Positions 5,735 to 64,000 of a DNA stretch of 64,000 nucleotides are shown piece by piece (position 1 is the stretch's first letter; every line of letters starts with the position of its first letter). The position numbers and the translations under genes are program-made. The notes under the pieces were generated by a model. It did not search any database and was not told the DNA's origin. It worked only from the letters and a program-made list of their open reading frames with translations. This stretch comes from Antedon mediterranea (lineage: Eukaryota > Echinodermata > Crinoidea > Comatulida > Antedonidae): positions 13,617,001 through 13,681,000 of the forward strand of contig NC_092680.1 in NCBI RefSeq assembly GCF_964355755.1, read 5' to 3'.

Positions 5735-6656
5735 CTGATAGACTGCGGTGAAGAAGGCAACGGGAAACCACTTCACTATCATTTTTCCAAGAACAATTAT
5801 GAAGTGTCACAATTCAAGAATGAAAGCTAACGGCGTAAAGAGGGTACATCCATCGTATGAAGGAGGCTCCTTGCCCGGTAGGGTGTCTCATGTGCGACAG
5901 GTGGAGCTCGACCGTCATAAAGCTACTGTCCGCAATAGAAGTACAATCAGATTAGGAACGTGAAATGTATCAAGATGGCAAACTTGAAAATGTTAAGCTG
6001 TAAATGATGAGACTCAACATCAATATATTAGGGATAAATGAAACTCATTGGACAAATAATGGTGAATTTATGATTGATGATTACAAGATGATTTACGCTG
6101 GAGGAGACAAACATGAAAAAGGTGTAGGGTTGCTTTTGGATGGTGATATGGCTAAATGTATGCTGGGCTATTGGGCTGTGAGTGAAAGAGTTATACTGGT
6201 CAAACTGCAGGGACAACCCTTCAATATCTCTATCATAGTGGTTTATGCACCTACAGCTGACAGCACAGATGAAGAAATAGATAACTTTTATGCGACCTTA
6301 GACCAGGGAGTTGTTATTAACAACTCCCTGCTTAGACCAGGGAGTCTCCCTGCTTAGACCAGGCCAAATCCCAATGCAAATCAGATGAGATAACTATCAT
6401 CATGGGTGATCTGAATGTAAAGGTTGGCCATGGGCAGGATGGAACACAGTTGGAGAGCTAGCATGGGATGGGTGAAAGAAATGAGCGTGGCGATAGATGG
6501 GTGAACTGGTGTAAAGCTAAGGATATGACCATAACAAATACATGGTTCAAAGAGCATCCCAGACGAATATACACATGGCAGACCCCTGGTGATGTGACGA
6601 GGGACCAGATTGACTACATTGCAGTAAACAGTAGGTGTAAAAGGGCAGTGACTCAT
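5735..6656 (+). pseudogene. RTE-type LINE fragment: 5' region and AP-endonuclease domain, broken
   Basis: The reading frame from about 6004 gives LNINILGINETHWTNNGEF, then KGVGLLLDGDMAKCMLGYW and SIIVVYAPTADST, the apurinic endonuclease of RTE LINEs (often annotated craniofacial development protein 2-like). It continues in another frame from 6363 with IIMGDLNVKVG and, from 6468, GERNERGDRWVNWC up to GDVTRDQIDYI. The 5' part (5748-5960) resembles the RTE leader. The domain is broken by an early stop, by a 56-bp hairpin insertion at 6304-6359, and by a TAG at about 6460. The reverse transcriptase is absent: an A-run at 6659 leads into AT-rich repeat sequence. Not functional. Confidence 0.85.
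6304..6359. mobile_element. Two mini-hairpins (27 and 15 nt) inserted in the RTE endonuclease, 7-bp CTTAGAC repeats
   Basis: Order on the plus strand: CTTAGAC (6297-6303); hairpin with arms CAGGGAGTTGTTA and TAACAACTCCCTG around a single T (6304-6330); CTTAGAC (6331-6337); hairpin with arms CAGGGAG and CTCCCTG around a single T (6338-6352); CTTAGAC (6353-6359); then the LINE resumes with CAGGCC. Removing 6304-6359 restores an uninterrupted endonuclease frame, so this is an insertion and the 7-bp repeats are target duplications. The second hairpin may be a shortened tandem copy of the first. Confidence 0.75.
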
Positions 6657-6658
6657 GA

Positions 6659-6835
6659 AAAAAAAAAAAATTCGAATTAAAAATTTGAATTAACGAATTA
6701 CTAATTCGAAATTTCGAATTAATAATTCGAAATTTCTGATTAGTAATTTGAAATTTCGAATTAATAATTCGAAATTTGAATTGATAATTCGAAAAAACGT
6801 ATTAATAATTCGTTATTTCGAATTTGTGAAAGCAA
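6659..6835. repeat. AT-rich array of degenerate AATTCGAA motifs
   Basis: An A-run is followed by many alternating copies of AATTCGAA, AATTTCGAATT and similar, self-complementary on both strands. It could be the end of a DNA transposon built from short repeats or an AT-rich satellite. From 6836 to 7115 nothing is recognised except the 5' flank of the next gene. Confidence 0.6.
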
Positions 6836-29800: not shown

Positions 29801-32800
29801 ATTTAACGTCGTGAGGTAATTTTCCGATTGATCGTAATCAAAACAGTACTGGGTTTGGTCTACTAATGTTCCTGCTCCAAACTAGTCATCCATTCATAGA
29901 AGCTTTAATGAAGTAAGGCTACCTGGTGGTGGCCATAGAACGGTCACGAGATAACGACTATACTTCGGCCTGAGAGGGATGGGAAGCCGATCACTCCGGT
30001 TGCGCTTCACTCCGGCCGCCGTATCAGTTTACGCGCGATGTTATGCACTCCGGCGGGCGATTTTTTTTTTCGTACATAAGTTGGGGACCCCCTCATGAAA
30101 CGTCACAAAATAAACATGAATAATTCATCAGTTAAATTTTCTTGTTCCGTGTGCACCCAAGCGTATAGCAACAAGAAGTGATTACACAAGTGCGGTACGA
30201 TTCTAGGCCTATCTCCGCTGTTGTTGCGGCGTGCGATTTCATAGCAGAATAGCGGCGTTTTGTGTGGATTGTCGAAATAATCAGCCTTTAGTTTATGGTG
30301 TTTTTAATATAATTTATTACTAAAGAATTAGGTGTTAAAATTATAGTTTCTATTAATACTATTAGGCCTAATTATTAGTCTCTAAACCCATGTCTATTCT
30401 AGTAGTAGCTGTGTGGGTGTGTGTGACGTGTGTGTGTTACTGTTAGGTATGACCAAAGATAGTGTAACTATCTTTGGTATGACACAATCCGAGTAATAAG
30501 TCAGCAAAATTAAACAATAAACATTACAGAAAAATACATTTTTTATTCTCGTGGGTCAAATCTTCCCATCTCATGTGTTCTAGCAGAATTAAAAAAATAC
30601 ATTACACAAATCACACATTCTTTATTCTTGTGGGTCTAAGCTTTCTTTGGGCTATGTCCAATGAATTACTACTTTAATGTCTTGCCTAGCTGTCGATTAG
30701 CCTCGACTCGACACATTTTGTGTGAAGAATAGTGCGCGAAGGCAATCACGTGAATTGACTTAGAATCCTAGGCCTGCTGTAGAAAGAATCGTATCGCGCA
30801 GTTGTTCGTGTAATCACTTCTTGTTGCTATACGCTTGGGTGCACACGGAACAACAAATTTAACTGATGAATTATTCATGTTTATTTTTGTGACGTTTCAT
30901 GAGGGGTCCCCAACTTATGTACGAAAAAAAAAATCGCCTCCGGCGGGCGATTTTTTTTTTTCGAACATAAGTTGGGGACCTCTCATGAAACGTCCAAAAT
31001 AAACATGAATAATTCATCAGTTACATTTTCTTGTTCCGTGTGCACCAAAGCGTATAGCAACAAGAAGTTATTCTTCTGGAGACATCCCCATATGGTGACA
31101 CTTTGTTGGGCCCTACGCGGGGCCGGGCCCTACGGCTGCTGCAGTCAACACAATGGTGGTAAAATAGTAAAAAAATACATCACTAGTATGTATGTCCAAA
31201 CTGTTAACTAAGGAAAATTAATTCAAAAACATTTGAAGCATACTGTAGGCTACATACTAGTAGAGGTATTCCTTTCTAAACAGTATCCCATTATTTTCAA
31301 ATCAAATTTGTGTTTTTATTTAATATAAAAGTGTTTCACATGTAGTCAAATGGAGAATATATAACTATTAAACGTACAAATACTAAAAAATAAAAAATTA
31401 TTGTGAGCATGCCAGATGGTTGCAAGCACATGCTTAAAAAACGTATCATTGTCGAGCTATCTTGTGTTACTGTACCATAATATGTTATTGTCATTTGATG
31501 ATCTTACAGTATAACTTGTAATAGTACCCTCAGTTATTTATTAGTTGATAATATTAATCTATTTGGTTACATCAGTAATAAATAATCATTTAATGGGAAA
31601 GCTGGGAAATGTATCTATTTATTTAAAAATGTATGATATAAAAACATAACAGCAGTCAAAGATCAAAAGTTTATGTTCATAAAAAATGTAAAAAAGTTAT
31701 TCATCAATCATGACAGCGAATTAATACCTGGTGAATAATGTAGGCCTACCGTAAGCTTTAAATGGTACTTTATAATGACTTAGTTTAGTCCAATGATTAG
31801 TCCATAGGGCTAGTCAATATCGATAGCCTTCAACCAACAGTGTTAACAAAAAATAATGTAGGCCTACTGTACATGTTTGTCTATAGGAAAGAATGACGTC
31901 AAATAAAGCACCTGAAAGGGATGAATATATATTAAACTGTTATTGTTTAGTTCATTGGCAAATATACTCAGATATACTCAAAACCCTTCAGTTTAAAAAC
32001 TTAACTATAACATGTTCATACAGTACAATACATACATCTCATTGCAACTTTTACCAAAGTACAATGTATAAATCTGACCGTAACAATAGTGTTTATTAAT
32101 AAGGTACATAATGGTAAACCAGGCTAATATTAAATAGCGTAAAGGAGAGGCCTATAACAGCAGCAGTTGACCCCTAATAGGAACAAGTATGAACTTTACA
32201 AAAAAACAAACATTTATCAGAATTATCTTTGAACTTGCAATAGCAAAGTAATAGACAAACATTGAGTTTCCCAAAGTTTGAATTAGGGCAAACTATGTAA
32301 ACATTTCAAAGATAAAATATAAGTCAGCCATAAAACTTTGTATTGATATTGAAAAAAAATAATATTACAATGCAAAACAGTAGGGCCTCTTGGATGGCAT
32401 GAGTTGGATATTATGGATGATTAACAAAATTCAACCAGGCGTAGCTACAAGTTTTACTTTTAGGCCTAAAGCAAACTACTATATAATTCACTAACATGAA
32501 TTATACCATTATGATATTTTAAGCAGTTATAAATAATCCAAGACAATAGACCAAGATTAATAACATTCCTATTACGATTTTGAAAATAAAAAATATATGT
32601 GTAAAAATAGTGAATGTTGGCTGGTGTGTAAAATGAGTAACCATTGTTCTGTATGTTCATATTTTGTTCATAGGAACATTTATAAGTGAAGATGACACAG
32701 GGTTGAGTGCAGTAGTTGGGTCAGCCGCCTTCAACGTCTTTATAATTATTGCTCTAGTTTCATTTTTTAGTGGAAAAGTAAGTATTTGACTTTGAGCCCA

Positions 32801-43204: not shown

Positions 43205-45876
43205 ATTTGCTGGTACATTGATGCACCATCACCTACATAGCTTTAAAAACTAATATGAAACTGCATTTTCTAGTTAGGAGTGATAGATGATAAATACTTT
43301 TATTATGTGATAAGCTGTATTTTTATTATAAATATACCAGTAGGTTTATCACATGATTAATTTATGGCTCCATATGCATTTAGAACCCAATACAACTGTT
43401 GACATCTATCCTACACAGTACACTGTATAGAGCAATTGCATATATTTGTGGTTTCTGTACATACAGTATATGACACAAGTCTAGGTATATGCTGTAAATT
43501 CCAATATTTAAGACTAAAAAGGAGGTAACACTACACTGAGATATAAAGTGTTCATTTGGCATAATCGATTGGAGGCTTCAACCATGGAGGTATAAAAAAT
43601 ATACCTCCATGCTTCAACATAGTATTTTAGTTTAGAGTATAGTTTTTCTGTTGAGTATTTAGTACAAGAATATTTACCCAACGAACAAACATGTTATAGC
43701 ACTTGTTTACTTCATCAAATACACTAAAGACCAAATATCTATGTCTTGCTTGTAAAATTTATGACTGATGACTTTATAAGACTGAATGATGGCAAGAGTG
43801 AAAACAGAATAAAAGACATATTTTAATTTAACTTGTAATTAATAAAGCCTGGATCAAATTCTAAACCTCTCAAGAATAAAAATTTGTAGGAATTTATTTG
43901 TGATACTGTGAATGTTAAAGCTGCTTTTAACAGTACATGACCGAGAATAGTCACCGGGGGAAAATGGTATGAAATTAGTAGGTGTAGGTTTATGCTGGGA
44001 TTGCATTAACATTGGAATTTACCCTGTCCTGTGTCCACATTTAGCCTTATACTCGAGAATGGGATTATACTCGGCCAAGGACCGTTGTGGCTGGAGAAAG
44101 CTTTTAGTCGCCTGCTCCGCAGTCGACTGATGATGATGATAAAGGTAGTAATTAATTTAAATTTAGTTCAATAAAAGCTGCTGAACATTATTATTTATGG
44201 TAGGAAAACACTGCATTTTCATACAGCATTATCAGTTACTAATTAATTACATATTATGGTCTTTTGTAAGTAATACTGTAATTAATAACTATAGGAATAT
44301 TTTCAAAGCATTTTTTACTTACAGAAAGTAATATATGTTAGGAGAATTAATGTGTATTAACTATTCAATGTAACATACTGTTTAAATGCTCACAAAGTGT
44401 ACCATTCATTCAGTTACTAAAGCCATTTTTATTTCAAAATATAATTCTGCATAAATGTAAAATACTGTATTTCATCCATTGTATGTTTTCCTTAACACTT
44501 TGACTGCCAGAGGTTTTTCCAGTTTGAAACTGCCACCGCCAGCGTTTTTAGCTAATTTCGATGTTTTCATTAAAGCTGATTGAAACTATGTATGTGATCT
44601 GATTAATATATAATTTAGACTAAAATAATCATAAAGATTTTAGCTTTAAAATGGTACCAAGAACGATTTTCAAATGTAAATCGTAATAGTAAAATAAAAG
44701 TAACCCACTTTTTTAGTTTTTCGTAGTTTCGCACAAGAATGAGATATTCGCGATTTTGTACAAGACATCACAATATGAAAATATCGCCCGGTGAGATCAA
44801 CAAAATAAACATTACTTACACAGCATCGATAGGCCTTAAAACAAGGTATCACAATCTAAAAATGTATTACATTTTATAAATAAAAAATCAAAGTTTCGCC
44901 AAAATCCACTTAGTAAAGACACTAGGCCTAGTCAACCAGGCCTAAAGTTGGTCCGAAATCGTTTTGCGCCTAGGCCTGGCCATACTTCTTACACCCTTTC
45001 TAAAGGATTATTAAGTAGTATAAATAAAATGCCCTATACCCCACAGTACATGCCTTTTCTTTAGCAGTCTTTATTCTGCCATCAAAAGGACAAATAATGA
45101 ATCTAAAGTTTATTTATTAAACATTTATTACTTTCACTGTTGGAAGTAAAAAGTTTTTGTAAGAAATAAAGAAAAAACCACCCAAAACAAACCCCTAAAA
45201 CAAAGAAAATTAGACTACAAAACAATGCAAAATTATAAACAAATTTGGCAAATAAGAATAAATATAGTTGCATCAGATTTGAAAATTGAAACAATACATT
45301 TTAACTGTTATGTTTCTTCTTCAACAAGGCTACACATCTGTTATATATATTGCATACATAGCCCTGATGAAGGATTAACTATTTTCCAAATGTTTGCCAC
45401 TTCTTTCTGGCTGTTTAGTACTTTACCGTTTTGATTTAGCTTTCTACTTTCTATTTGTATCTCCATTGATACCCACAGCATTGTCATTTTTCCCCAAGTA
45501 ATTTGCCTTTGTATTTATATACATACATAATCATATATAAATATTATTTACTGTACTGTAGAATTAAAAACAAAAATGCTCCATTAAATTATCTAATATT
45601 AATTTCAACCCTTTCATACTACTTTTTACTTTTGACGTACTGTAATAAAATTGAGAAAACCAAGAGGATGAATTCACAACAAAAATGAATTACCAAAAAA
45701 GCCCGATTCCAAAAGAATTGTGAATACCCTCAAAGCTGAAGATATTTGAGATTTATGATTAAAAATCCAAATTTTATATAAATATAAATATATATAGTTT
45801 GTTGCTTTTTTGCATGTTCCCTACATATAAATAATTCTGATGTAACATCTTCCACACTATTGAACTACCTAAAAAT
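43205..45876. other. Intergenic region between the exchanger and PRRC1
   Basis: Mostly AT-rich sequence without coding frames. It contains a mini-hairpin insertion at 43576-43618, a possible repeat at 43990-44135 that ends GTCGACTGATGATGATGATA (a trinucleotide tail as RTE LINEs have), and the 3' flank of PRRC1. Confidence 0.5.
43576..43618. mobile_element. Mini-hairpin insertion, 29 nt, 7-bp CTTCAAC repeats
   Basis: CTTCAAC (43576-43582), then arms CATGGAGGTATA and TATACCTCCATG around AAAAA (43583-43611), then CTTCAAC (43612-43618). The hairpin is perfect; the preceding G also matches, so the repeat could be 8 bp in another parse. Confidence 0.7.
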
Positions 45877-53606: not shown

Positions 53607-53647
53607 GTGACGTCAAAGAATATAATATATATATTCTTTGGTGACGT
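53607..53647. mobile_element. Mini-hairpin insertion, 27 nt, 7-bp GTGACGT repeats
   Basis: GTGACGT (53607-53613), then arms CAAAGAATATA and TATATTCTTTG around ATATA (53614-53640), then GTGACGT (53641-53647). It is upstream of the PRRC1 start, possibly in its promoter or 5' UTR. Confidence 0.7.
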
Positions 53648-63653: not shown

Positions 63654-64000
63654 GTACGGCGTATCAAAAATGTCATATTTTTGTATGATGCCTTTTCTGG
63701 TTTTTTTTTGCCATTCGCCTTTATAAAACAATCATCCATTAACATTATTAAAAAATAGTAAACCTTTATTTTGTTAACGCATGGAATATTCTTTACTCCA
63801 TGGTTAACGTATGGCGGATAAATGACACATAAGCGTTTTATTAATTTTGTAGTGTGGGATAGCAATTCTAATTACAGTATTAACCTTTTGTATTATAATC
63901 CTTTTGTATTTCGACACTGTTTATATGAAGCAATTTGACACAGCTGTTAAATTGTTAATTTCAGAAGCCATTGAATTTTCGCTTTGCGTTGGCTTCTTTT
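63654..64000. other. Right end of window, no recognised gene
   Basis: AT-rich. At the very end AGAAGCCA (63963-63970) and TGGCTTCT (63990-63997) face each other around TTTTCGCTTTGCG, probably the edge of another repeat. It is expected to be intronic in the SNX1/2 gene. Confidence 0.4.

Follow-up and report, generated by a model that had tools for sequence, protein, structure and literature searches.

We conclude that the short hairpins in the 64,000-nt stretch of Antedon mediterranea DNA analysed here (the window) are very probably excision scars of P-superfamily transposons that insert with 7-bp target duplications. A sequence-only reading had drawn attention to four loci that follow one rule, namely a self-complementary insert with CA and TG ends, a 7-bp duplication around it and arms that are dissimilar from locus to locus, and when the letters were rechecked this rule held at all four. 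What did not stand was the treatment of the four loci as equals, because the one at 6297 comprises two scars and the one at 30447 is one copy of a multicopy scar.

The loci are laid out as follows, with positions counted along the window and no strand assigned unless one is given. A 29-nt scar of the family that we call A (43583-43611), with arms as in the long elements L027, L028 and L088+L091, lies between two 7-bp copies of CTTCAAC at 43576-43582 and 43612-43618. Three 7-bp copies of CTTAGAC (6297-6303, 6331-6337 and 6353-6359) enclose a 27-nt family B scar at 6304-6330, with arms as in L078, L079 and L080, and a second scar, trimmed to 15 nt (6338-6352), that is family B-like by its 7-nt arms only. 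The two 7-bp copies of GTATGAC at 30447-30453 and 30477-30483 flank a 23-nt family C scar (30454-30476; arms as in the 1.6-kb L112 and L113), and those of GTGACGT at 53607-53613 and 53641-53647 flank a scar-like 27-nt hairpin (53614-53640). A looser scan added a possible extra scar at 63773-63809, a weak candidate in which a 23-nt insert with 6-nt arms, beginning at 63780, lies between two copies of GTTAACG.

In the window, 236 placements of perfect hairpins fit an arm of at least 7 and a loop of at most 6, and 13 of them start with CA and end with TG. Five of these 13, at four loci, have an exact 7-bp flanking repeat, and the flanking repeat exceeds 6 in none of the 223 placements without such ends. 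Against the five placements in the window, 100 dinucleotide shuffles of it yielded not one CA..TG hairpin with a repeat of at least 7. In a 140-kb sample fixed beforehand, a looser scan met a single CA..TG case with a 7-bp repeat, a weak one (L044:1560), against five in the window, and the window must therefore be regarded as richer than average and not as typical; the expectation from the 1,563 genome-wide matches to families A-C is about 0.6 per 140 kb, or 0.28 per 64 kb. The window (6681-6760) and L054:6037-6590 also contain palindromic units of about 21 bp in tandem arrays, which are unlike the scars.

Evidence of insertion comes from the host sequence of the scars at 6297, a LINE-like repeat on the + strand (6201-6460) that a search showed at 12 other places and that has a weak endonuclease-reverse transcriptase match (16.8 bits, under the cut-off of 27.4). 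The insert is missing at this site in all ten fetched relatives, which have a single TTAGAC and no hairpin arm, and in eight of the ten the sequence is exact and uninterrupted; the window has three copies. Two insertions with target duplication therefore took place at this locus, the second in the regenerated target. The family C scar likewise lies in a multicopy host repeat (30381-30560), with at least 39 other full-length matches of 94-97% among the 40 scored of 608 candidates, and its flanks and GTATGAC are common to 11 of the 19 fetched family C loci; having been copied along with its host repeat, the scar at 30447 is no independent event.

In the 354-Mb genome, gapped patterns built from the arms gave 596 matches for family A (CATGGAGGTA arms), 783 for family B (CAGGGAGTT arms) and 184 for family C (CAAAGATAG arms), and the same patterns reversed gave 0, 0 and 1, respectively, although these counts exceed the number of events because some scars have multiplied with host repeats. 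Three of the four window loci fall into these families: 43576 into A, 6297 into B and 30447 into C. Among the matches listed, 29 of 50 family A scars and 33 of 50 family B scars are distinct inserts. A similarity search with the surroundings of the 43583 insert returned 26 rows, and the 7-bp repeat was exact at 17 of the 20 places fetched and had one mismatch at the other three, a set biased by the query, which itself contained the 7-mer. The arms are constant in these relatives; the 7-mers and the centres differ. A pattern of paired CTTCAAC without arms (gap 12-42) proved uninformative, with 739 matches vs 607 reversed, mostly tandem arrays; an array of 42-bp tandem repeats at G000:C1:465045-468861 was picked up in this way.

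How general is the 7-bp duplication? For 36 scars that follow the order of the listing almost throughout (16 of the 50 listed for A and 20 of the 50 listed for B), which are partly dependent in that at least four pairs have common flanks, the flanking repeat was exactly 7 bp in 20, 8 in one, 6 in one and 7 with one mismatch in five, and nine of the 36 had no recognisable 7-bp repeat; in another fetched set an exact 7-bp repeat was absent at 4 of 20 loci. All fetched loci and the window together provided 104 scars, of which 87 have distinct flanks, and among these 87 the repeat is exactly 7 bp in 62, 8 in one, 6 in one and at most 2 in 23. The 62 exact repeats are made up of 46 different 7-mers; their consensus is GTTNAAC, with 53 having T at position 2 and 51 having A at position 6.

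Long elements with the same ends as the scars are present for families A, B and C. Nine two-ended elements were recovered, and the 7-bp duplication is exact in seven (L027, L028, L078, L079, L088+L091, L112 and L113) and matches at six of seven positions in two (L080 and L114). Those of family A are L027 (3,130 bp, duplication GTGAAAT), L028 (878 bp, GTTCAAG) and L088+L091 (6,324 bp, GATACCG), the last lying on the window's contig at a distance of about 190 kb, and in all three the scar arms are the outer portion of longer terminal repeats. Family B is represented by L078 and L079, each of about 2.5 kb and 99.1% alike, and by the 4.0-kb L080, and family C by the 1.6-kb L112 and L113 and the 9.7-kb L114, whose long ORFs resemble an LTR retrotransposon by eye. 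L086 and L087 were also considered as complete elements and set aside as truncated, because L089 is without a left terminal repeat and L087 without an outer end. The notion that the hairpins might be explained by larger known elements is borne out in spirit, in that long elements have the same ends, but the relation is very probably one of excision and not of inclusion.

A transposase had been named among the possible sources of the inserts, and this is supported for families A and B, in which the scar ends are the ends of long elements with P-type transposase domains. Within L088+L091 a 590-aa ORF matches PF21787 at 85.6 bits (cut-off 24.6), and exon-like ORFs beside it match PF21788, the GTP-binding domain, at 26.6 bits (cut-off 24.8) and PF21789 at 25.6 bits (cut-off 24). 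L086 matches PF12017 at 26.0 bits (cut-off 23), PF21787 and PF21789 above cut-off, and PF21788 at 23.1 bits, slightly under the cut-off of 24.8; the family B element L080 matches PF21789 at 34.8 bits. From these domain matches the parent elements are predicted to encode an RNase H-like core with a GTP-binding insertion, as in the P superfamily. Among solved structures, L088+L091 best matches P transposase 6p5a (E 6.3e-5), though over no more than 73 residues, and a search with PF21787 gave 35 matches here against zero in 14 control genomes. An N-terminal THAP domain is typical of known P and THAP9 transposases, but we do not take it as defining; the transposases of L088 and L086 gave no THAP match at E <= 0.1, and their N-termini are zf-AD-like at 25.3 and 25.8 bits, under the cut-off of 28. 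In family C no transposase was tied to the element ends, L112 and L113 having no ORF of at least 110 aa.

Several further features of these transposase genes were observed. L088:592-5554 and L086:819-6114 each contain two opposed genes with their 3' ends facing, a P-type transposase on one side and on the other a PHD-finger ORF followed by an ORF of 342 or 350 aa of no known family. A transposase accompanied by a PHD partner is reminiscent of RAG1/RAG2, although the match of RAG2_PHD to L079 reached no better than E 0.027. The idea that the partner ORF on the opposite strand has split off from the transposase is not supported, as it has no significant match to other transposase ORFs or to solved structures. 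A P-type transposase ORF of 794 aa is read through in one frame at three places (L023, L024 and L025); a search for element ends around the copies of this ORF in L023-L025 and L029, and for L030 and L043, found none with CA..TG and a repeat of 7 or 8 bp.

The length of the scar arms bears on how the inserts arose: the parental terminal repeats measure 28-34 nt and the arms stop at 17-20 nt. The longest retained end is 20 nt in family A (100 ends of 50 listed scars, 29 of them distinct), 19 nt in family B (100 ends among the matches listed, with a known parent for only one of the B subfamilies) and 17 nt in family C (28 ends, 14 distinct inserts). In family A 27 of the 100 ends retain at least 17 nt (9 at 17, 14 at 18, 3 at 19 and 1 at 20), and the drop falls after 18 and not after 17 nt, although 17 and 18 are inseparable in many of these scars because the tails end in TA. 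Typical long scars, such as L034, L041 and L096, are 34 nt, twice 17, and L033 and L083 consist of 17 nt, filler and 17 nt. The commonest family A product, a 20-mer that makes up 9 of the 50 listed, is the product expected from pairing of two identical tails at TATA; the 34-nt and 30-nt products are compatible with pairing at TA.

What events would produce such inserts? In the scheme we favour, a P-superfamily transposon would insert and duplicate a 7-bp target (consensus GTTNAAC), and its own transposase would later excise it, cutting with such a stagger that 3' tails, about 17 nt from either terminal inverted repeat, stay on the chromosome. The tails would be identical in sequence and could pair only at short self-complementary spots, e.g., TA or TATA, where end joining with trimming or short filler would yield target, left tail, right tail and target, which form an almost perfect palindrome that starts with CA and stops with TG. 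The TATA and TA products agree with microhomology end joining. Among the loci read we met no relative with a full element at an exact scar site, and it is for this reason that we infer the succession of insertion and loss at one site.

Drosophila P transposase is reported to leave 17-nt 3' extensions on cleavage (PMC7776569), and with such a stagger scar arms of 17-20 nt are to be expected. Junctions after P excision in flies keep no more than 17 nt from each end, joined through filler and set between two copies of an 8-bp target (PMC2895639); they are like the scars here in this order of parts, with microhomology or filler at the centre, and in inserts that start with CA and end with TG, and they differ in the duplication (8 bp vs 7 here), in species and sequences, and in coming from an assay, whereas the scars here are natural and in large numbers. 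By analogy with the same study, polymerase theta may be the joining enzyme here as well. Galileo, a member of the P superfamily in Drosophila, has mostly 7-bp duplications, as here, also with a palindromic consensus (GTANTAC vs GTTNAAC here), but has long terminal repeats, unlike our elements (PMC4168063). Zebrafish Pdre2/THAP9 has in common with them a P-type transposase, CA..TG ends and internally deleted copies, and is set apart by 8-bp duplications and 13-bp terminal repeats (PMC10983969).

Other origins have to be weighed against excision. The sequence-only reading had considered integrated hairpin DNA and deletion derivatives of MITEs, both of which fit less well with the ceiling of 17-20 nt on the arms, the variable centres and the existence of the long elements. 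The inserts might instead be extreme internal deletions of P-like elements that arose through aborted gap repair and were perhaps then transposed; such products are known after P excision (PMC2895639), and the 75-nt insert of L039 retains subterminal parental sequence. We give this little credence, because none of the 100 family A ends of the listed scars keeps 21 nt or more, when a total length of up to 50 was allowed, and if deletion ends are taken as uniform in a toy model, the value for the 29 distinct scars is 2.7e-18. For the short class of inserts, the arm-length ceiling speaks against deletion.

Very little credence is due to the idea that the palindromes of 20-34 nt are tiny MITEs themselves moved by a P-type transposase. 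Mobility would account for identical inserts whose sites and 7-bp repeats differ, such as the family A 20-mer in L117 and L125, but the centres vary while the arms stay constant (29 of 50 A and 33 of 50 B inserts are distinct among the matches listed), and the inserts that do recur are those predicted from TA or TATA pairing. Further, P transposase reportedly requires internal element sequences (Kaufman 1989, as listed among the references of PMC7776569). To an origin by chance or through slippage in short repeats we give practically no weight: the palindromic tandem arrays at 6681-6760 and in L054 do pass loose scans with other repeat lengths, but the 100 shuffles contained none of the hairpins in question, the reversed patterns gave 0, 0 and 1 matches against 596, 783 and 184, and for families A-C the shuffles and reversed patterns together refute it. 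Such an origin is possible for the insert at 63780 and, less so, for the hairpin at 53607. Scars of hAT type were also considered and rejected, as the palindrome here is built from element ends and not from the flanking target.

Differing scars at one site count in favour of excision. Copies of the 30447 site have differing scars (L092, L099, L109), and L096 and L105 are copies of one host sequence with differing scars at one site, which means either that the copies of a single insertion were excised separately or that a scar changed afterwards. Two or more adjoining scars occur at 6297-6359 in the window and at L038, L081, L085, L099, L102 and L103, loci that outnumber the events because some have common surroundings, and L085 has one scar of family B and one of family A, set between three copies of GTCAAAC. 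These stacks suggest that regenerated targets were hit again, the duplication breeding further insertions. We tentatively propose, as a possibility somewhat less likely than not, a target ratchet in which each round of insertion and excision would add a copy of the preferred target GTTNAAC beside a CA/TG arm, so that the site would be hit again, also by other P families, and the stacks of scars would grow.

P-type excision scars were already known from fly experiments; here they are abundant beside their parent elements in one genome. We found no natural genome-wide census of such scars in the open-licence literature, which is weak evidence that there is none, and what is new is how abundant the scars are in nature and that successive insertions, in some cases from two families, have used the same target. 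Palindromes of 20-40 nt may be overlooked or misnamed by repeat finders. With them, the stagger of the cut, the use of short homology or filler and the number of elements lost for each one present become measurable in a species without genetics. If the target ratchet is true, germline excision followed by end joining would be on record in this genome well over a thousand times, and the record could show where the cuts fell, which signatures repair left and how targets were reused.
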